Below, piece by piece: positions 5,254-29,644 of a stretch of 33,996 nucleotides of DNA. The stretch comes from a virus: IMG/VR virus record IMGVR_UViG_3300032215_000074, positions 1 to 33,996 of that record. One strand, given 5' to 3'. Made by a program: the position numbers and the translations under genes. Each line of letters starts with the position of its first letter. The stretch's first letter is position 1. The notes under the pieces are model-generated. The model was not told the origin of the DNA, did no database searches, and saw only the letters and a list, made by a program, of their open reading frames with translations.

Positions 5254-5650
5254 TCCTGTAGGTAGACCAACTCTTTATGACCCATCGTTATGTGAGCGAG
5301 TAATCGCTTTGGGGAAACTAGGCAAAAGCATTGAACAAATTGCTTGCGAGTTAGGGTTTTCCACTAGAGTATTGTTTAAATGGCGTGACGAACACGAAGA
5401 ATTTATGCACGCCATGAGCGATGCTAAGGAATATGAACAGGTTTGGTGGGAAAGTATTGCCCAAACGCACATGATTGAGGAAAAAGACGCAGCGAAGCTA
5501 AATGCTTCAATTTGGTCGCGCTCGATGGCTGCACGATTCCCCAAGAAATACCGCGAATCAACAAAGACAGAGATTACAGGCGCAGATGGCGCACCACTAT
5601 TGCAGGGAATTGAAGTATCGTTTGTAACGCCTGAAAAGCGCGATGAGTGA
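5246..5650 (+). CDS. terS: Terminase small subunit
   Basis: A 134-aa DNA-packaging recognition protein. The N-terminal VGRPTLYDP lead-in is followed by an HTH (about residues 18-45: LGKLGKSIEQIACELGFS, then LFKWRDEHEEF), a helical oligomerisation core with W/E-rich helices, and an extended tail ending close to the large-subunit start. Small subunits of this kind form rings that bind pac DNA and regulate the motor. The ATG at 5246 is chosen rather than upstream in-frame codons because it sits in the overlap with the previous stop. Confidence 0.85.
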   Translation: MSNPVGRPTLYDPSLCERVIALGKLGKSIEQIACELGFSTRVLFKWRDEHEEFMHAMSDAKEYEQVWWESIAQTHMIEEKDAAKLNASIWSRSMAARFPKKYRESTKTEITGADGAPLLQGIEVSFVTPEKRDE

Positions 5651-6920
5651 ATTACAGGCAGCAATAGCTAAGGCACAGTTTCCTGTCAAACTGGCTTGTT
5701 TGTTCGAAAAGTCTAGATATAAAGTTTTACACGGCGGTCGAGGCGGCGCTAAGTCTTGGGGTGTGGCTAGGGCGCTATTGATCCTCGGTGCTAAATCACA
5801 ATTGCGTATCCTTTGTGCGCGAGAATTTCAAACTTCAATTAAAGATTCCGTCCACAAATTGCTGTCAGATCAGATCATTGATCTAGGTTTAATATCGTTT
5901 TATGAGATTACTCAAACGTCAATTCGTGGTAAAAATGGTACAGAATTTGCGTTTAGTGGCTTAAAAAATAACGTTACAAACATAAAATCGTTTGAAGGTG
6001 TCGATATTTGCTGGGTTGAGGAAGCCCAGTCGGTATCAAAACGATCATGGGATGTATTGATTCCAACGATCAGAAAACAAGATTCAGAGATATGGATTAC
6101 TTTTAATCCTGAATTGGAGTCTGACGAAACATATCAAAGATTTGTATTAAAACCGCCTGAAAATGCGATTATTCAAAAGATTGGTTGGCAAGACAATCCG
6201 TGGTTTCCTGAAACGCTAGATTTAGAGCGTCGGTCGTTGCACATGCGCGATCAGGAAAGCTATAACACGGTTTGGGAAGGCGTTTGCCGACAGACTGTAG
6301 ATGGCGCTGTATTTGCCCGTGAAATGCAGATGGCTGAGTTACAAGGCAGAATTACAAAGGTCAATTATGATCCAATGAAGCCTGTACACGCTGTCTTTGA
6401 CTTGGGTTGGGCAGACTCAACGGCTATTTGGTTCGTTCAATTTGTGGGGATGGAGACCAGGCTGATTCGCTATATGGAGAACAGTCAGCAAACAATTTCT
6501 TGGTATTTGGCGCAAATGCAAACCTATGGATACATCTACGATACGCTGTGGTTGCCTCACGATGCTGAAAACAAAACCCTTGCAGCAGCAGGCAGAACAA
6601 TCGAGGAAATCGTCCGAAACTCAGGGTTTAAGACCAGAATTATCGGGAAAACGCCAATTGTCGATTCTATTAACGCGGCGAGAACAATTTTCACAAACTG
6701 TTGGTTTGATAGAGAAAATTGCCACGATGGATTACAATGTTTAAGACATTATCGGTATGAAGTCGATCCTGATAGCAAACAATTCAGCAAAACACCTGTG
6801 CATGACTCATATTCTCACGGTGCTGATGCGTTCAGGTATATAGGATTGATGATTACTGAATCGAAAGAAAAACGGGTAAGAAAACCCACATACACCGCAC
6901 CTGGCAACTGGATGGGCTGA
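5643..6920 (+). CDS. terL: Terminase large subunit (packaging ATPase/nuclease)
   Basis: The 425-aa motor that pumps DNA into the procapsid and cuts the concatemer. The ATPase domain shows Walker A GGRGGAKS (31-38), Walker B ICWVEE (122-127) and a coupling-like ITFNPE block. The RNase H-like nuclease domain has acidic residues at FDLGWADS, LPHDAEN and DSYSHGADAFRY. It belongs to the PBSX/P22-like Terminase_3/6 type. It starts eight bases inside the small-subunit gene and is followed after two bases by the portal gene. Length and motif set are complete, so it should be functional. Confidence 0.95.
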   Translation: MSELQAAIAKAQFPVKLACLFEKSRYKVLHGGRGGAKSWGVARALLILGAKSQLRILCAREFQTSIKDSVHKLLSDQIIDLGLISFYEITQTSIRGKNGTEFAFSGLKNNVTNIKSFEGVDICWVEEAQSVSKRSWDVLIPTIRKQDSEIWITFNPELESDETYQRFVLKPPENAIIQKIGWQDNPWFPETLDLERRSLHMRDQESYNTVWEGVCRQTVDGAVFAREMQMAELQGRITKVNYDPMKPVHAVFDLGWADSTAIWFVQFVGMETRLIRYMENSQQTISWYLAQMQTYGYIYDTLWLPHDAENKTLAAAGRTIEEIVRNSGFKTRIIGKTPIVDSINAARTIFTNCWFDRENCHDGLQCLRHYRYEVDPDSKQFSKTPVHDSYSHGADAFRYIGLMITESKEKRVRKPTYTAPGNWMG

Positions 6921-22493: not shown

Positions 22494-22867
22494 TCGACCA
22501 AATTGCCGCCAAAGAAATGCTTTATCAGTCTGTAAAAGATAGATTAACCATTTCTTGTTCTGAGTACATAAATGCAATTAAAAATTGGGAAATAGTGCCT
22601 TTAAAGCGTCAAAACGAGGTTATAGGCGCGGTTTTGATAAAAGGCAATGAAGTACACATAGGATATGGAAAGCCTGCGGGCGCGGCTTTAAAAGCCCATT
22701 TAAGGTTAACTTTAAAGAAATTATTGGATAAATACGGATATGTCGTAACTTATGTGCAAAACGACAATTTGAAAGGTTTAAATTTCTGTAAACGCTTAGG
22801 ATTTATTGAGTTATCGCAAGACTCAGTTAAAATCTTCTTACGATGCGATGGGAGTAAATATGTTTAA
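22490..22867 (+). CDS. GNAT-like protein in the ejection gene cluster
   Basis: A 125-aa protein with an N-acetyltransferase-like fold pattern: beta strands around NEVIGAVLIKGNEVHIGYG, a helix AHLRLTLKKLLDKYG, and the C-terminal VQNDNLKGLNFCKRLGFIEL that matches the last helix-strand of GNAT enzymes. The acetyl-CoA loop (Q/RxxGxG/A) is not clearly present, so it may have lost catalysis. T7-like phages place a GNAT-related internal virion protein (gp13 region) in a comparable position. It may help assemble the internal proteins; inference only. Confidence 0.65.
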   Translation: MIDQIAAKEMLYQSVKDRLTISCSEYINAIKNWEIVPLKRQNEVIGAVLIKGNEVHIGYGKPAGAALKAHLRLTLKKLLDKYGYVVTYVQNDNLKGLNFCKRLGFIELSQDSVKIFLRCDGSKYV

Positions 22868-23771
22868 GAATTATCTAAATCGACGAAATGTGGAACACGA
22901 TCCTATTGGCGATCCCAATGGCGGCGATCCTAGACTTTCTCGCACTCGTAAATTGCATGATCCTGTGACTGCGGCAATTTCTGTTGGCGGGTCTTTGATT
23001 GGCGGCGCAATTTCATCTAATGCTGCGACTTCAGCGGCTAAAACGCAAGCAGATGCAGCAAAAGATGCTCAAGCGCAACAAGAAAGGATGTTTCAGACTT
23101 TACAAACTCAACAAGCACCTGCTCGCGCTACGGGTTATCAGGCGTTAAATACGCTTGGCTCGATGTTGCCTGGTTACTATCAACAGTATGACGCTTTAGG
23201 CAATCCGGTAGCGGGTGCTATAGGTTCAGGTGAATTAACTAGACCATTTACTGCTGAAGATTTAAAAACCAATCTTGCGCCTAATTATCAATTTATGCTT
23301 GGGCAAGGCACAACTGCTGCACGAATGGGTACAAATGCAGGCGGCGGTGGTTCTAATGTAAACATTGCAGGCACTAAGTTTGCTGAAGATTACGCTTCAA
23401 ATGCGTATCAAAATGCTTTTAATAACTTTCAAACGCAGCAAACCAATATTTATAATCGTTTGGCAGGCGTGGCAGGTATAGGTCAACAAGCACAAGCAGG
23501 CACAAATACTGCGGCAGGTAATTACATCAATGCGGCAACAGGATTAACCACAGGTGGCGCAGCAGCTACCGCAGGCGGTACAGTCGGATCGGCAAATGCT
23601 TTAGCGGGAACACTTGGCAATGCATCAGGTAATTACACGCTTTATAGTTTGTTGAATCAAAATCCAAGTTTAGGTGTGCCAGGTCAAACAACTTACGGGA
23701 CACAATCTCCCAATCAAATAGCAGCAAATCAAACTTTTGCAGCGAATACTGGCTATCCCACCGGATTTTAA
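22860..23771 (+). CDS. Internal virion (DNA ejection) protein, first of three
   Basis: A 303-aa protein. The start at 22860 has GGGAG five to eight bases upstream and overlaps the previous stop. After a polar N-terminus with a likely processed or flexible segment comes a small hydrophobic glycine-rich stretch (TAAISVGGSLIGGAISS, about 38-54), then a helical Gln/Ala-rich body (AKTQADAAKDAQAQQERM) and a Gly/Ala/Asn-rich end. This is the usual make-up of podovirus ejection proteins (P22 gp7/gp20-like), which leave the head with DNA and help build a conduit across the envelope. Confidence 0.75.
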   Translation: MFKNYLNRRNVEHDPIGDPNGGDPRLSRTRKLHDPVTAAISVGGSLIGGAISSNAATSAAKTQADAAKDAQAQQERMFQTLQTQQAPARATGYQALNTLGSMLPGYYQQYDALGNPVAGAIGSGELTRPFTAEDLKTNLAPNYQFMLGQGTTAARMGTNAGGGGSNVNIAGTKFAEDYASNAYQNAFNNFQTQQTNIYNRLAGVAGIGQQAQAGTNTAAGNYINAATGLTTGGAAATAGGTVGSANALAGTLGNASGNYTLYSLLNQNPSLGVPGQTTYGTQSPNQIAANQTFAANTGYPTGF

Positions 23772-23780
23772 GGTATAAAA

Positions 23781-25223
23781 ATGGCTACTAATATTGATCC
23801 AAATATTTCCTTAAATGCAAAAGTACCGGATTCAATGACCAGTCTTGGTCAAATGATGAACGTTGCTCGCGGCGCACAGGCTTATCAACAACAAGCACAA
23901 TCTTTTCCCACATTGCTTGAACAGCAAAAGTTGGCATTGCAAAAAAGCCAACAAATGTTGCCGATTGAATTGCGTCAAGCGGAAGCAGCGGCAGGCACAT
24001 CTGAATTAGGATTAAGTCAAAAACAACTTACGCTTGCCGGTGGAATGTTAACGGGTTTGGAATATTCAGACGCATTAAAAACGGGAAACATTCCTGAGTT
24101 AACAAGCCAAGTTAATACGATTGAACACGTTTTAAAAGCTAATGGGGTTCCCGTAAAAAAGACGTTTGGGCAAGTTAACGCTATGCTCAAAGCAGGTGAT
24201 GTAAAAGGCGTACAGAATTTTATTGCCAACCTTAGAACTGGTCTTGCATCTGAAACGCAAAAATTCTCTGCTGCATTGCCACAATTTACAGATGTTGGTG
24301 GTCAACCGGCGACTACCACTCAAGGTGGGCCAAAAGGCGGAACAATTCAAAATGCGCCTATTGTTAATAATGAACCTTTGCAGCCTGCCCAACCTACCCC
24401 AATTACAACTGGTGGCACAACAACTTTTCCTGTAGCTGCGCCTTCTAAGACAGTTGCTAGACCTGCGCCATTTGTTGTTGGAGGTATTGATATTAACGAA
24501 CCTGAAACGCCTAAATATCCAAATCGTGTTTCGGGCAAAGTTACAGCACCCGCAACTCCTGAAGAAACTGCGGCACAAACGTCAGGAAATGCTTATTACA
24601 CAAGTTTATCAATGGAACAACCTAAATTGGCTCGACAAGTTGATAATTTGAGAAATGTTGTAAGTCAAGCTACAAAACTTCAAGGTACGATGTTAGGCGC
24701 AGGTGAAAAAAGTGAAAGTGCATGGGCGCAACTTGGTAATGATGCTTTGCGAAAAGTTTATACAAATGTTGCCGTTAAACTTGGAAGTACAGAATTGCAA
24801 GAATTGGCAAAAGATTTGGCTAACGTTCAAACTTCAATTAGTGCTGCCGGTGGAACACGAACTGATGCAGGTTTAGATTTAATCAAAATTGCAAGTGGAA
24901 CTGAAAAAACTTCACCAGAAGTATTAATTAAAATTGCACAACGCACAATGGCTGAAGTTAAAAACATTGATTCGCAAACCGCAGCAGCACGAAAATTTAA
25001 AGACAAATTTGGCACAAATAATATGGAAGCATTTCAGCGTATGTGGGGCAAAAACGCTGACACTAGAGTTTTTCAAATTATGAACGTTGTTGATAGCGTC
25101 AAAGATCAAAAAGAGCAAAAAGCATTGCTTGGTCAAATTTACGGCGGTGACACAAAAGAACTCGCAGCCGGATTACAAAAATACCGTAACATTAAAAAAT
25201 TAATGGCTGATGGGACACTCTAA
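23781..25223 (+). CDS. Internal virion (DNA ejection) protein, second of three
   Basis: A 480-aa mostly helical protein rich in Gln, Ala and Lys, with a proline/threonine-rich linker in the middle (about 165-235: PLQPAQPTPITTGGTTTFP). The N-terminal half has amphipathic helices (SLGQMMNVARGAQAYQQQ) and the C-terminal half a longer helical domain. It has no enzymatic motif. Position between the two other internal proteins and a TAATG overlap with the third suggest it is an injected protein comparable to P22 gp20 in role. Confidence 0.72.
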   Translation: MATNIDPNISLNAKVPDSMTSLGQMMNVARGAQAYQQQAQSFPTLLEQQKLALQKSQQMLPIELRQAEAAAGTSELGLSQKQLTLAGGMLTGLEYSDALKTGNIPELTSQVNTIEHVLKANGVPVKKTFGQVNAMLKAGDVKGVQNFIANLRTGLASETQKFSAALPQFTDVGGQPATTTQGGPKGGTIQNAPIVNNEPLQPAQPTPITTGGTTTFPVAAPSKTVARPAPFVVGGIDINEPETPKYPNRVSGKVTAPATPEETAAQTSGNAYYTSLSMEQPKLARQVDNLRNVVSQATKLQGTMLGAGEKSESAWAQLGNDALRKVYTNVAVKLGSTELQELAKDLANVQTSISAAGGTRTDAGLDLIKIASGTEKTSPEVLIKIAQRTMAEVKNIDSQTAAARKFKDKFGTNNMEAFQRMWGKNADTRVFQIMNVVDSVKDQKEQKALLGQIYGGDTKELAAGLQKYRNIKKLMADGTL

Positions 25224-28200
25224 TGTCTACACTTGATGCAGTAGAACAATTGTTTTCGTCAGAGTTGCAAACTTCTAAAAAATTAGATTTTAGTAGTTTG
25301 CATCCTGATTTAGCTACGGCTGCTGAACAAGCAAATCAATTACATATTGAAAAATACGGCACACCGTTGCCGGTTACAAGCATGGCTCGATCAAGAGCAG
25401 AGCAACAAGCGTTGTTTAATCAACGTGGTCAACCTAATGTGTTTATGCCATTAGATCCGTCTAAATATCCAAATCAAAATATATTTCATGCTAATGCTAT
25501 TGATGTGGGCACTAACATTAATCCTGAATTTGTATCGGTAATGGAAGGATTGGGGTTACATCGCCCTCACGGTGCAAAAGATCCTGTTCATTGGGAACTT
25601 AACCCAAATTATAAAAAAACAATTGCACCATCAGAAAAAGGCGATAGCATTGAACAATTGTTTTCAGATGCGTTAGCCAATGCACCTGCTGAACAACCTG
25701 CATCCACAGCACCGGTTGCACCGCCTGCCGCGCCTGTTGTAGCGGCTGAACCTGTTGCACCAACTGCGCCAGTTCAAACTGCACCGGATCAAGTTGCACC
25801 GGCTGTAGAACCTGTTGCTGCTGTACCTGCCGCACCTGTTGTTGCTGCGCCGGTTGCGCCTGTTGCTGTGCCTGTTGCGTCAGTTGAGCCAACAACACCG
25901 CCTGCACCACGAACGTTTAAAGATTATGTGAAAGAAACAGGCAAAAGCGTTGCATCATTTTTAGATAACACCATTGGCGGCATAATTCCTGCTGCGGTTG
26001 GCGTTGTAGCGCATCCATTGCTAAAAGTTGTTGAAGCTACTTCTTTAGCAACTGGCGGCAAATTTAATGCGGCAGAAGCTACTCACGCCATTGTTGATCC
26101 AATTTCAAGACCGTTTGCCAAAGCGGTTGGCATTGATCCTGAAGATCCCGCATATAAACGTGAAAGCGTTAACCGTTTAATGACATGGGTTGGTGAACAC
26201 GTTGGCGAAGGTTCACAAGTTTTATCCGATAAATTTTATGAACAAACTGGCGTAAGAATCCCGCCATCAGATTTTGAATATGCTGCCAATCTTGGTCTTG
26301 CTGCGGTAAGTGGCAAAGTCGCACCTGTCGCTGTTAAAGGCGTAAAAAATGCGATTGGTGCATTAGAAGAACAATTTGCAGCCAAAAAAGGCGCAGAACA
26401 AAAAACAACATCGAAAACAGAACCAAGTATTGAACCTGTAGATACTAATTTAACTGCAAGAGAGGCTATTTGGGAAAAATTACAACCATTGCACGATGAA
26501 CATACTGCGTTGCAAGAGGTATCTAAACAATTTGAAACTGGTAGTTCTGAGTGGCATAAAAGCATGGATGCAGCAAATGCTTTTTTTGATGAAAAAATAA
26601 AACCGTTACATAACAAATTAGATGCATTAGAAAACGAACCAACAACAGTTGTTTCTGAAGCCCCTGGTATCCGTGTTGAATATCCTGTTGAAAAACCTAA
26701 ACTGACTGCCGATCAATATAGTCAATTAGTTGAGGCTGAAAAAGCCGGTGCTACGCCTGAAGCGTTGCAAACAATGGTTGAACAGTTTAATGCTAAGAAA
26801 GCAGCGGCAGAACCAGTTGCGCCTGTTGGAACAGTTGAAACTCAATTGGGTGAACAACTTACGGCTAAACAGTCACCGATTCAAGTGCCTGTTGAAAATC
26901 CTCCAATGCCAACCCGTGCTGCATCGGCACAAGATGTTGCCGCTAAAAAAGATTTGTTGCGTAGTGTTGGCGTTGAAACATTTAGAAATTCAGCACTTGA
27001 AGGCAATCCTAAAGAGGCTAGTTCGCAATTTATTACTGCATCTGCCGATCAAGGGCCATACGCAACCGGCATGACCGCACAGATTAATCACGAAAAATCT
27101 GCGTTAAATAATCATTTTGGTAAGATTTCTGAAGATGCCGGTGGCACAAACGTGCGTTATGGAACGCCAGAAGAAGTTAGCGATCAGATTACAAGCGGTG
27201 CAAAAATTAAAAGCGCATTAGAACAAGGCTACAAAGCGCACGTTGCAGAAAGCAAAAGTTTGTATAAAGAAGCTGAAACGGCGCATGGTGGAAAACCTGT
27301 AACCGTAGATAAATTTAGCGATTTTCTTAAAGACAATTCTAATTTTGCGTATGAAAACGAAAAAGGTTTAAGAAACGGCATTAACCAATATATGTCGGCT
27401 AAAGGTTTGCTTGATGCTGAAGGCAATGTAAAGCCTATGTCTATTGCACAGGCTGAAGGTGTACGCCAGTATATTAACAATAAGTATCATCACGAAACTG
27501 CAAAACTTGGAGGACAGTTAAAAGGTTTGATTGATAACGAAGTTTTTGAACAAGTTGGTGGAGAAACTTATCAAAAAGCTAGGGCGCATTGGAAAAAAGG
27601 AATTGAAACTTATGACAATCCTAAAGCCGTTGGTGATTTGTTGTCTGATCGTGGTGTTAATCAAAAAATTGCAGATGAATCAGTTACAATTAAAGTTGCT
27701 GGTTTAGCAGAAAGCCAATTTAAACATTTAATTGATACATTACGAACTGATGGGCAAACCGCAGCAATAAATGAAATCAAAACATCATTGGTCGATCAAA
27801 TTAGACGTTCAGGTGAAAGTGGTGTGAACCAACCGTGGAACTCAATTGCTGCGGCTAAAACAGCGTCTAAAATTAGCGAAAAGTTAAAAGTAGCGTTTGC
27901 TGATGATCCTAAAGGCTTGGCTAAAATCTATGATGGCATTGAAGCCGGTAATATTTTGCACATTCCAAGCCGTTACCCTGGCGCAGCTGTGCAAACAAAT
28001 TTATTAAAAAACAAGTTTTCGGATATTGCATTGCAACGTGGTTTGGGAACAGCAGGTGCAAGTATTGGCGGGTTTTTAGGTGAAGGCATAGGTGCTGCTG
28101 GTGGTTATGCTGCGGGAGAATATTTTGGTGCTAAAGTTGTTGGCGCGAAGAAAGCCAGACGCCAAATTAAACAACTTGAATCAGAATTAACGCAAAAACA

Positions 28201-28249
28201 AAAAAGCAGATTATCTGATATGTTAGGTATTACTTCAAAAAATAAATAG
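25223..28249 (+). CDS. Large ejection protein with N-terminal M15-like peptidase
   Basis: A 1008-aa virion protein. Residues about 20-130 look like an M15/VanY-type peptidoglycan peptidase: LPVTSMARSRAEQQALF, then FHANAIDVG (H89, D94), then GLHRPHG and DPVHWEL (H123). The H-to-D spacing is two shorter than the usual HxxGxAxD. The motif EQLFS(S/D)xL flanks the domain at 8-15 and 144-151. A Pro/Ala/Val linker spans about 152-232, and the rest is long helical with a Gly/Ala-rich, membrane-prone stretch near 940-970. It likely opens the cell wall during DNA entry, as T7 gp16 does with a different enzyme. Confidence 0.75.
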   Translation: MSTLDAVEQLFSSELQTSKKLDFSSLHPDLATAAEQANQLHIEKYGTPLPVTSMARSRAEQQALFNQRGQPNVFMPLDPSKYPNQNIFHANAIDVGTNINPEFVSVMEGLGLHRPHGAKDPVHWELNPNYKKTIAPSEKGDSIEQLFSDALANAPAEQPASTAPVAPPAAPVVAAEPVAPTAPVQTAPDQVAPAVEPVAAVPAAPVVAAPVAPVAVPVASVEPTTPPAPRTFKDYVKETGKSVASFLDNTIGGIIPAAVGVVAHPLLKVVEATSLATGGKFNAAEATHAIVDPISRPFAKAVGIDPEDPAYKRESVNRLMTWVGEHVGEGSQVLSDKFYEQTGVRIPPSDFEYAANLGLAAVSGKVAPVAVKGVKNAIGALEEQFAAKKGAEQKTTSKTEPSIEPVDTNLTAREAIWEKLQPLHDEHTALQEVSKQFETGSSEWHKSMDAANAFFDEKIKPLHNKLDALENEPTTVVSEAPGIRVEYPVEKPKLTADQYSQLVEAEKAGATPEALQTMVEQFNAKKAAAEPVAPVGTVETQLGEQLTAKQSPIQVPVENPPMPTRAASAQDVAAKKDLLRSVGVETFRNSALEGNPKEASSQFITASADQGPYATGMTAQINHEKSALNNHFGKISEDAGGTNVRYGTPEEVSDQITSGAKIKSALEQGYKAHVAESKSLYKEAETAHGGKPVTVDKFSDFLKDNSNFAYENEKGLRNGINQYMSAKGLLDAEGNVKPMSIAQAEGVRQYINNKYHHETAKLGGQLKGLIDNEVFEQVGGETYQKARAHWKKGIETYDNPKAVGDLLSDRGVNQKIADESVTIKVAGLAESQFKHLIDTLRTDGQTAAINEIKTSLVDQIRRSGESGVNQPWNSIAAAKTASKISEKLKVAFADDPKGLAKIYDGIEAGNILHIPSRYPGAAVQTNLLKNKFSDIALQRGLGTAGASIGGFLGEGIGAAGGYAAGEYFGAKVVGAKKARRQIKQLESELTQKQKSRLSDMLGITSKNK

Positions 28250-28729: not shown

Positions 28730-29145
28730 TGTTTCCATTACCTAGTGTGTTAATGCTAAAAATTGGCGCAGCACTTGCGTTATGCTTGGTCATGTACTTT
28801 ATGGGGTATAGCCATGAACACAAGAAATTCGTTAAGTATCAGGCTGAGATTGCTGCATTGGGTAAAGCACAAGAAATTATTAACGCTGCAAAGGTAAAAG
28901 AACATGAAACTATATCGGAATCTATCAAGTCGGAATATGATGCTAGGCTTTCTGCTGTGCATAATTATTACTCTGACAGGATGCAGCGCGACACCGGTAG
29001 CAGTAACGTGTCCGCCGTTTCCAAGCCCGCCCAATGTCCTAATGTCCCAACCACCGACGCAGGACTTGCTCGACGCTGCGCTCAAACTACCCTCCAGTTA
29101 ACTGAACTCCAAAAGTGGGTGCAAGGCGTAACCAATGCAAAGTAA
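28729..29145 (+). CDS. Rz: Inner-membrane spanin (Rz-like)
   Basis: A 138-aa i-spanin: an N-terminal signal-anchor helix (about 8-26, LMLKIGAALALCLVMYFMGY) followed by a periplasmic coiled coil (HKKFVKYQAEIAALGKAQEI) and a final helical segment with two cysteines. With the lipoprotein encoded inside it in another frame it would span the periplasm and fuse inner and outer membranes after wall degradation. It stands between holin candidates and endolysin, which proves a Gram-negative host as far as context can. Confidence 0.82.
   Translation: MFPLPSVLMLKIGAALALCLVMYFMGYSHEHKKFVKYQAEIAALGKAQEIINAAKVKEHETISESIKSEYDARLSAVHNYYSDRMQRDTGSSNVSAVSKPAQCPNVPTTDAGLARRCAQTTLQLTELQKWVQGVTNAK
28904..29101 (+). 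CDS. Rz1: Outer-membrane spanin lipoprotein (Rz1-like), nested
   Basis: A 65-aa frame wholly inside the i-spanin gene in the +1 frame. It has a signal sequence (MMLGFLLCIIITLTGC) with lipobox LTGC (C27 as the lipidated cysteine), then a short proline-rich mature part (CPPFPSPP) typical of Rz1. AAGG about nine bases upstream serves the ATG; ATG at 28937 is an alternative start closer to the hydrophobic core. The nested arrangement matches lambda Rz/Rz1. Confidence 0.8.
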   Translation: MKLYRNLSSRNMMLGFLLCIIITLTGCSATPVAVTCPPFPSPPNVLMSQPPTQDLLDAALKLPSS

Positions 29146-29644
29146 TTTTCAAAAATCATTTGAGTTAATGCTTAAATCAGAAGGTGGATACGTTAATAAT
29201 CCTGCTGATCCAGGCGGCATGACCAACCTTGGCGTGACCAAAGCCACTTGGGAAAACTGGATTGGTCGGCAATCAAACGAAGCAGAGATCCGTAATCTTA
29301 CGTTTGCAAAAGTCGAGCCTTTATACAAAAAGAAATATTGGGATGCTGTGCGTGCGGACGAATTGCCTGATGGCATTGATTACTTAGTTTTTGATTTTGC
29401 CGTGAACGCTGGCGTAGGTCGAGCAATCAAAACCTTGCAAACTGCCGTAGGCGTAGCGTCAGACGGTTGGTTTGGGCCTGCAACAATGACAGATGTAAAG
29501 GCTCTTGATCCGCATGAATTGATTGAGCGTTTTAGCAAGGCAAAAGAAGATTTTTACCGTAGTTTGCCAACCTTTGATGTATTTGGTCAAGGTTGGATAA
29601 ATCGAGTCGCAGACGTTAAACAAAAAGCAACTTTAATGGTGTAA
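29135..29644 (+). CDS. Endolysin, GH108-type muramidase
   Basis: A 169-aa peptidoglycan hydrolase. The catalytic N-terminal motif EGGYVNNPADPGG (glutamate E16) followed by TNLGVT is diagnostic of glycoside hydrolase family 108 (N-acetylmuramidase). A C-terminal helical part with VGVASDGWFGPATM resembles the peptidoglycan-binding type 3 domain usually fused to it. There is no signal peptide, so release depends on the holin. It overlaps the i-spanin gene by 11 bases. Confidence 0.92.
   Translation: MQSNFQKSFELMLKSEGGYVNNPADPGGMTNLGVTKATWENWIGRQSNEAEIRNLTFAKVEPLYKKKYWDAVRADELPDGIDYLVFDFAVNAGVGRAIKTLQTAVGVASDGWFGPATMTDVKALDPHELIERFSKAKEDFYRSLPTFDVFGQGWINRVADVKQKATLMV

Follow-up and report, generated by a model that had tools for sequence, protein, structure and literature searches.

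The window analysed here, 33,996 nucleotides of viral DNA (IMG/VR virus record IMGVR_UViG_3300032215_000074, positions 1 to 33,996), encodes a 1008-aa ejection-type protein, E3, that carries a peptidase domain near its N terminus between two copies of a short motif. Computation reveals an M15-like fold with conserved ligand residues, a motif pair whose members match each other within one protein, exchange of the slot between them, and co-variation of the motif with E2, the product of the gene directly upstream. We consider it fairly probable that E3 of this freshwater P22-like podovirus docks twice on the tunnel protein E2 and holds an exchangeable wall-cutting enzyme between the docks; the docking of the E3 motifs on E2 would be a protein contact read from sequence comparison. 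The features discussed are the following.

25223..28249, + strand: E3, 1008-aa ejection-type protein carrying the slot (ORF from ATG; P22 gp16/T7 gp16-like by position and build)
25235..25267, + strand: putative docking motif copy 1, DAVEQLFSSEL (aa 5-15), from the self-match; low-confidence predicted helix at aa 3-15 (pLDDT about 50)
25280..25612, + strand: slot domain, M15-like peptidase (aa 20-130), from PHROG 2649, AlphaFold2 and fold matches
25643..25675, + strand: putative docking motif copy 2, DSIEQLFSDAL (aa 141-151), from the self-match; predicted helix at aa 143-151
26900..28249, + strand: conserved C-terminal region of E3, used in homologue searches for collecting the family
23781..25223, + strand: E2, 480 aa, proposed docking partner (from co-variation in a related family; resembles P22 gp20/T7 gp15 in order and size only)
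24741..25220, + strand: C-terminal third of E2, the best tracker of the twin motifs (co-variation in the A9, or second, family; tail types)
22806..23771, + strand: E1, gp7-like 'DNA ejection' protein, 321 aa (PHROG 598, E 7.5e-19)

The motif pair of E3 and the slot between its copies

The first-pass annotation had pointed to EQLFS(S/D)xL on both sides of the domain, and the motif is indeed found as EQLFSSEL at aa 8-15 and EQLFSDAL at aa 144-151. The pair DAVEQLFSSEL/DSIEQLFSDAL scores 37 (BLOSUM62), which alone is not decisive because the same self-comparison gives up to 40 for Pro/Ala-rich linker repeats. The best 8-mer match between the first residues of E3 and the following stretch is reached by 0/500 shuffles. 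On the DNA level the EQLF-coding pattern is weak: the window has 3 matches where 0.64 are expected, and 7/100 shuffles reach 3.

Relatives of E3, which are 58-95% identical in the C-terminal region, show that the motif differs lineage by lineage. MW202520.1 matches 77% of E3 at 84% identity and carries both motifs too, but they enclose an unrelated domain. In MW202674.1 and L010 the pair is DEISALILGE/DDISSLILGE around an SLT transglycosylase (Pfam 2.4e-8 for the MW202674 slot). M15-bearing proteins with other C termini have pairs of their own (DMRKALG/DMRKSLG, GLKFL/GLKFI), and a second C-terminal family, for which a scan confirmed 142 loci and 80 were kept, contains LADLW/LADLW, FADFL/FADFL, LEQFLSG/LEAFLSG and DELGQLILG/DELGALILG. 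VPGLK/IPGLK became NPGLK/NSGLK in both copies of L063 and L064, which suggests, on the sequences, a joint change of the pair.

The pair statistics cover 122 proteins with complete N termini in 34 clusters. The mean 8-mer score of a protein's own pair is 31.9, compared with 19.4 when stretches are permuted among proteins (maximum 23.4; 0/20000). On the level of clusters, 28/34 are at or below 5/500 shuffles; counted singly, 106/122 proteins pass, including 64/73 in the second family. An earlier test on 17 clusters gave 0/200 shuffles in 14.

The contents of the slot are diverse. Sorted by regular expressions, the 122 proteins comprise 58 with M15, 39 with other or helical-looking content, 10 with no enzyme, 8 with SLT, 4 with NPxNL, 2 of the L020 type and 1 lambda-like (a lambda-lysozyme-like domain in L013). 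Fewer than 50 residues and no enzyme lie between the copies in L012, L021, L022, L120, L123, L138, L153, L156, L158 and L160; in the first three the copies are only 11-17 residues apart. The slot domain of L020 and L023 (about aa 20-185) resembles a transglycosylase only by its GAQGAYAI stretch, and that of L020 has no family match and no match in the phage collection. L110 and its relatives have in common a helical-looking slot filler of ~80 residues (DQAMRDKSRMDILQ...ALTREMGGK), for which the L110 sequence gave no Pfam or PHROG match. Unrelated slots occur inside one protein cluster in 4 clusters, and M15 relatives with the usual zinc spacing occupy the same slot position as the peptidase of the window.

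The boundaries of an exchange are visible when the DNA of the window is compared with that of MW202520 in 15-base steps. Identity is 80-100% up to base 45 of the gene, that is, through copy 1. It falls to 27-40% for three steps and is 73% in the next; from where copy 2 begins, it is 93-100% for 60 bases. The first-pass annotation had suggested that the domain was inserted into or duplicated with a binding motif. One part of this idea is supported, a domain exchangeable between copies that behave like a binding motif; that the motif was brought by the domain is not. Joint insertion or duplication of motif and peptidase was rejected, since proteins with no enzyme have the pair and so do proteins with unrelated enzymes. 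Recent duplication or gene conversion of the copies is not supported by the codons. Among 16 representatives (L042 left out), codons agree at 42/91 identical residues, and 48.3 were expected. As this is not above the codon-usage expectation, the likeness of the copies does not stem from recent copying, and it points to selection on the protein.

Other arrangements were seen beside the bracketed one. L159 and L161 have an SLT-like domain first and then two near-identical DPAKILADFQxWKAAKQ copies in tandem, not bracketing the enzyme. By eye, L081 (EBPR podovirus 1 gp25) has a doubled N-terminal motif, YGEVAKQFGGQ/YSGLAAKFGGK, and L080 (Caulobacter phage RW gp63c) has AYRRGLLP/AVRRGLIAG; neither has an enzyme between the copies, and L080 carries an SLT-like domain at its other end. 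No bracketed slot was seen by eye in Sinorhizobium phage phiM5 gp31.

Co-variation of the motif with E2

Within the 10 proteins of the window's own family, E2 identity splits the motif classes, with at least 48% within and at most 43% between classes. Co-variation was measured in the second family, using 40 representatives for the partial rank correlations (36 with E1) and 38 for the position tests. The partial rank correlation of motif with E2, given the C terminus of E3, is 0.74 (0/2000). It is 0.09 (284/2000) for motif and C terminus given E2, and 0.03 (659/2000) for motif and E1 given E2.

The position tests locate the signal in both proteins. Rank correlation with E2 is 0.783 for copy 2 and 0.736 for copy 1, and it is 0.25 for the slot content and 0.22 for the first 150 residues of the C-terminal region, after copy 2. 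On the side of E2, copy 2 follows the C-terminal third (0.836) better than the middle (0.609) and N-terminal (0.215) thirds, and the two copies have rank correlations of 0.78 and 0.84 with the C-terminal third. Within bins of C-terminal similarity, the correlation of E2 tail and copy 2 stays at 0.71-0.83. Since copy 2 was chosen by its likeness to copy 1, the choice was repeated on substitute stretches as a control for circularity. The maximum was 0.18 with shuffled stretches and 0.31 with stretches of other proteins, and the observed value is 0.78.

The E2 tails form three groups, of 26, 11 and 1, which coincide with the motif classes. Two pairs of loci illustrate this. L118 and L157 have the same E2 tail (0.97), C terminus (0.96) and motif, with unlike slots (0.08); L094 and L157 have a slot type in common (0.56), and their motifs and E2 tails (0.07) differ. 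By eye, E2 tail types are also common to different C-terminal families of E3. Copy 2, which lies beyond the slot, tracks E2, while the slot does so far less, and this argues against linkage alone.

The M15-like peptidase domain and its putative zinc loop

The first 152 residues of E3 hold the M15-like domain, at the N terminus that the first-pass annotation had read as M15/VanY-like. PHROG 2649 ('endolysin') matches aa 20-129 (E 2.1e-6), and profiles including relatives match LysB4 at 3.9e-14 and Ply500 at 3.1e-13; the domain sequence alone found no M15 match in the PDB, where the top rows were RNase H at E 0.79 and worse. An AlphaFold2 model was built from a 36-row alignment and has pLDDT above 90 across most of aa 20-130. 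The first-pass annotation had proposed a structure prediction as a check, and the predicted fold is M15-type, with M15 enzymes as the top solved-structure matches. Foldseek places Ply500 (2vo9) first at E 6.5e-3 and probability 1.00, with no match at 0.001 or below, followed by the L-Ala-D-Glu endopeptidases ChiX and RB49 (E 0.13 and 0.14). VIA-align, which covered the families of the VIA list only, gives Ply500 at Z 7.6 (107 residues, 4.1 A), LysB4 at Z 7.2, and then VanX/VanY/LdcB enzymes; these Z values are middling, and a Z below 8 is weak by itself. The assignment to M15 is made because the fold matches agree with the sequence profiles and PHROG 2649.

Two parts of the putative active site are needed for what follows.

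25466..25504, + strand: putative remodelled zinc loop YPNQNIFHANAID (aa 82-94), with H89 at 25487-25489, D94 at 25502-25504 and His at position D-5 (alignments A5-A7, spacing count)
25580..25591, + strand: D120 (putative catalytic base) to H123 (putative third zinc ligand), DPVH; both invariant in 36/36 alignment rows

From the sequence, the zinc-ligand residues His, Asp and His are present in order as H89, D94 and H123, and R56 and D94 are as invariant as D120 and H123. The ligand region DPVHWEL (aa 120-126), previously noted as intact, is so, and can be read further: the residue three before the last His is an Asp, as in M15_C. In EndoT5 the catalytic Asp is D130, three before H133 (excerpts of PMC10487532). 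An Asp at the catalytic position, as in EndoT5, makes an L-Ala-D-Glu endopeptidase likelier than a D,D-carboxypeptidase, and the slot peptidase is probably such an endopeptidase by this analogy. We infer both catalysis and the zinc geometry of the slot peptidase.

The motif FHANAID (aa 88-94) is shortened, as the first-pass annotation had observed, with H89 five residues before D94 in place of the usual seven. A profile scan of viral contigs gave 46 loci with an M15 domain, and the spacing was classed over these and later loci. Among 65 M15-bearing locus entries, three contigs being entered twice under different locus ids, the spacing is 7 in 57, short in 7 (L033, L034, L036, L038, L039, L040, L041) and truncated in 1; the window adds an eighth short case not included in this count. 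The short form FHxxAxD is present in 6 distinct sequences (window, L033, L034, L036, L038, L040), and its other carriers are 30-41% identical to the window. Compared with most relatives, the short form is longer by ~six residues ahead of the His and shorter by two behind it. In the predicted model, DSSP places H89 right after a bridge (aa 87-88) and D94 within strand 92-95.

Downstream of the site, L036 (FHESAADIPASVPESFLNQ) is nearly the same as L129 and L148 (HETNEAADIPASVPESFLNQ) and L162 (HEVNEAADIPASVPESFLNQ), which keep the spacing of 7 and are missing the Gly; both spacing forms therefore occur within closely related domains. As to the separate subfamily that the first-pass annotation had considered possible, the short forms need 4 changes in a tree built without the loop (75 columns, 37 rows), which is still consistent with one clade (p-AU 0.397). 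In L038 and L039 the short form is located at the C terminus of a 565-aa protein that matches PHROG 7694 (unknown function) and, weakly, a tail protein. In distant actinophage-type endolysins from Curtobacterium phages, phage 4A and a viral contig (L006, L014, L015, L016, L019), the first His is 9-10 residues before the Asp, and L006 and L014 have an additional His at -5. The spacing of the zinc loop thus varies in more than one direction.

Alternative explanations and known ejection systems

Three other explanations of the motif pair were weighed. The motifs could be packaging signals for scaffold, coat or portal, E2 co-varying through the same partner; T4 capsid-targeting peptides offer a parallel. 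Copy 1 does lie at the extreme N terminus, and P22 ejection proteins enter procapsids with scaffold (excerpts of PMC8402733). However, motif similarity follows the C-terminal third of E2 and not E1, which is presumably packaged too, while P22 gp20 is packaged via its N-terminal 314 residues (same excerpts). Nor was a convincing third copy found in the other ORFs of 15 loci scanned: the top score, 28.5 in L066, belongs to a reverse-strand ORF that would be antisense to the ejection gene by its coordinates, and the best of the window outside E3 is DSVHKLLSD (24.0; mean maximum of 10 shuffles 18.2) in the large terminase ORF 5643-6920. We regard packaging signals as unlikely. Linkage, by which E2 and the start of E3 would be inherited as a block and agree without contact, would account for the strongest E2 signal lying at its near end and fits the one-base overlap of the E2 and E3 ORFs in the window. 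Against it, copy 2 tracks E2 at least as well as copy 1 across a slot that follows weakly (0.78, 0.74 and 0.25), and L094 and L157 have one slot type with different motifs and E2 tails; we hold linkage to be very unlikely as the sole cause. Least probable to us, indeed highly so, is that the motifs are only recombination seams, repeated DNA for swapping enzyme cassettes. Although in the one pair examined the exchange begins and ends at the motifs, and unrelated slots share a cluster in the 4 cases above, copies 1 and 2 have just 18-23/33 bases in common in the four phages compared, codon sharing is about as expected, and the pair is kept where the enzyme is absent.

It is also quite unlikely, in our estimate, that the peptidase domain is a degenerate pseudo-enzyme retained as a spacer or wall-binding module. 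The suspicion arises from the short H-D spacing, the missing canonical Gly and the replacement of a conserved Trp by Pro. Yet R56, H89, D94, D120 and H123 are kept in all six short forms, including the differently built 565-aa L038, and relatives with a spacing of 7 sit in the same slot position.

Several results count against double docking with an exchangeable enzyme, and they are gathered here. Within the window's own family of 10, the C terminus of E3 splits the motif classes as E2 does (at least 74% within, at most 66% between; E1 does not split them), so this family cannot separate the two. The link of slot content to E2 is weak and not nil (0.125, 73/2000, given the C terminus; 0.21, 1/2000, given copy 1), and E2 lies directly upstream of copy 1, so that linkage may add to the signal. 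The motif was compared with E1, E2 and the C terminus of E3. Six clusters exceed the shuffle limit of the pair statistics (of 500: L020 9, L040 25, L013 73, L141 170, L042 281 and L159 441, where both copies come after the enzyme), and L094 is borderline, with 5 and then 7 of 500. When downstream stretches are ranked by their match to copy 1, the protein's own comes first in only 19/34 clusters, and within the top three in 27, because many clusters share a motif class. In protein D of the T7-like Bordetella phage BB8, a lysozyme-type domain stands at the N terminus; by eye, no motif precedes it and no bracketed slot is present. The structure model of E2 is all-helical with low confidence (pLDDT 59). 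As for the enzyme, the window has HANAID, His 5 before Asp, where HxxGxAxD would put it 7 before. The Trp near the active site that is strictly conserved in an M15_C set (excerpts of PMC10487532), at D-5 (W109/D114 in RB49), is P115 here. The M15 profile search that the first-pass annotation had proposed succeeded in part: PHROG 2649 matches, and the relative L052 clears the Pfam VanY cut-off (37.4 bits versus 25), but E3 aa 1-152 had no Pfam match, falling short of the VanY/Peptidase_M15 cut-off.

The genome around the ejection block carries portal, major head protein and head closure Hc3 families (PHROG 156, 283 and 578). E3 is the third ejection gene after a gp7-like E1 and a gp15/gp20-like E2, the order expected of a P22/T7 gp16-type protein, and from gene order and size we infer that E1, E2 and E3 are analogues of P22 gp7, gp20 and gp16. 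E2 itself had no confident match in Pfam or PHROG. An SLT-bearing relative of E3 matches PHROG 342, 'internal virion protein with endolysin domain', and the record of phiM5 gp31, a distant relative of the L043 C terminus, places that protein in the particle proteome; E3 would likewise be located in the virion. A GH108 lysozyme with a peptidoglycan-binding domain, at 29135..29644, is distinct from the entry peptidase and is probably the lysis enzyme. No prophage relatives in bacterial genomes were confirmed in the contig scans.

Under double docking, E3 would be a virion-carried ejection protein of a P22-like podovirus whose two short amphipathic N-terminal motifs bind the C-terminal third of E2. 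The exchangeable slot between them, here filled by an M15-type zinc peptidase, would let the enzyme open the peptidoglycan where the tunnel crosses it. More tentatively, and with less than even confidence, we can imagine that one E3 grips two E2 subunits, that the loop between the docks is a general enzyme slot, that motif and E2 tail form a lock and key, and that placing the first zinc ligand in a rebuilt loop is a second way of making the M15 metal site. According to excerpts of PMC8954989, virions contain 8 gp15 to 4 visible gp16 in T7 and about 30 gp20 to 12 gp16 in P22; such a ratio of roughly 2:1 would suit a two-handed grip, which is conjecture. Both of these T7 proteins, gp15 and gp16, form hexamers once ejected, at 1:1 (same source), which speaks against a grip on two E2 subunits.

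That ejection proteins carry wall-hydrolase domains at varying positions is already known. Titles and abstracts of the open-licence literature searched, with subscription papers mostly outside that scope, contained no paired motif of this kind, and the excerpted T7 and PhiM1 ejection literature (PMC8954989, PMC11440229) mentions none. Little is known of how podovirus ejection proteins recognise one another, in the head or once ejected, particularly in P22-like phages, where cryo-EM reconstructions of the virion do not show these proteins (excerpts of PMC8402733). A paired motif of ~nine residues that co-varies with a defined part of the tunnel protein makes this recognition testable with peptides. 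It would also offer a natural attachment scheme for swapping wall-degrading entry enzymes without breaking the injection machine, and a reason why unrelated enzymes stand at the same place in related phages. If true, the code of motif and E2 tail would set which ejection proteins can mix when phages recombine.

The M15_C L-Ala-D-Glu endopeptidases Ply500, LysB4 and EndoT5 resemble the slot domain in predicted fold, ligand order and the catalytic Asp before the last His. In contrast to them, the window has an H-D spacing of 5 and not 7, no Gly, and no Trp five before the catalytic Asp, and its domain is part of an ejection-type protein where they are free lysins. The virion endolysin-domain proteins of PHROG 342, 873 and 2013 match the SLT and NPxNL slots of relatives; the motif pair on either side lies outside these matches, which cover the enzymes. 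With P22 gp7/gp20/gp16 the system shares gene order, sizes (E2 480 aa, gp20 471 aa) and portal and head closure families, although P22 gp16, unlike E3, is described without a wall-hydrolase domain (excerpts of PMC8954989). In T7, the transglycosylase lies in gp16 residues 1-156, which sit as wings on the tunnel of gp15. The interfaces of gp15 are cemented by gp16 residues 157-228, the stretch after the transglycosylase, and its C termini are stabilised by gp16 (same excerpts). The co-variation points to the same contact here, from the N terminus of E3 to the C terminus of E2, as far as such analysis can indicate. T7 gp16/gp15 and PhiM1 TEP/OEP, the systems closest to the one proposed here, have a large ejection protein with a wall-degrading domain near the N terminus and then a stretch that binds the tunnel protein (excerpts of PMC8954989 and PMC11440229), and the position of the enzyme varies among phages, the PhiM1 domain being inserted in the hub (excerpts of PMC11440229). 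Unlike in T7 and PhiM1, the binding element proposed here is short, occurs twice, flanks the enzyme, and varies by lineage with the tunnel protein.

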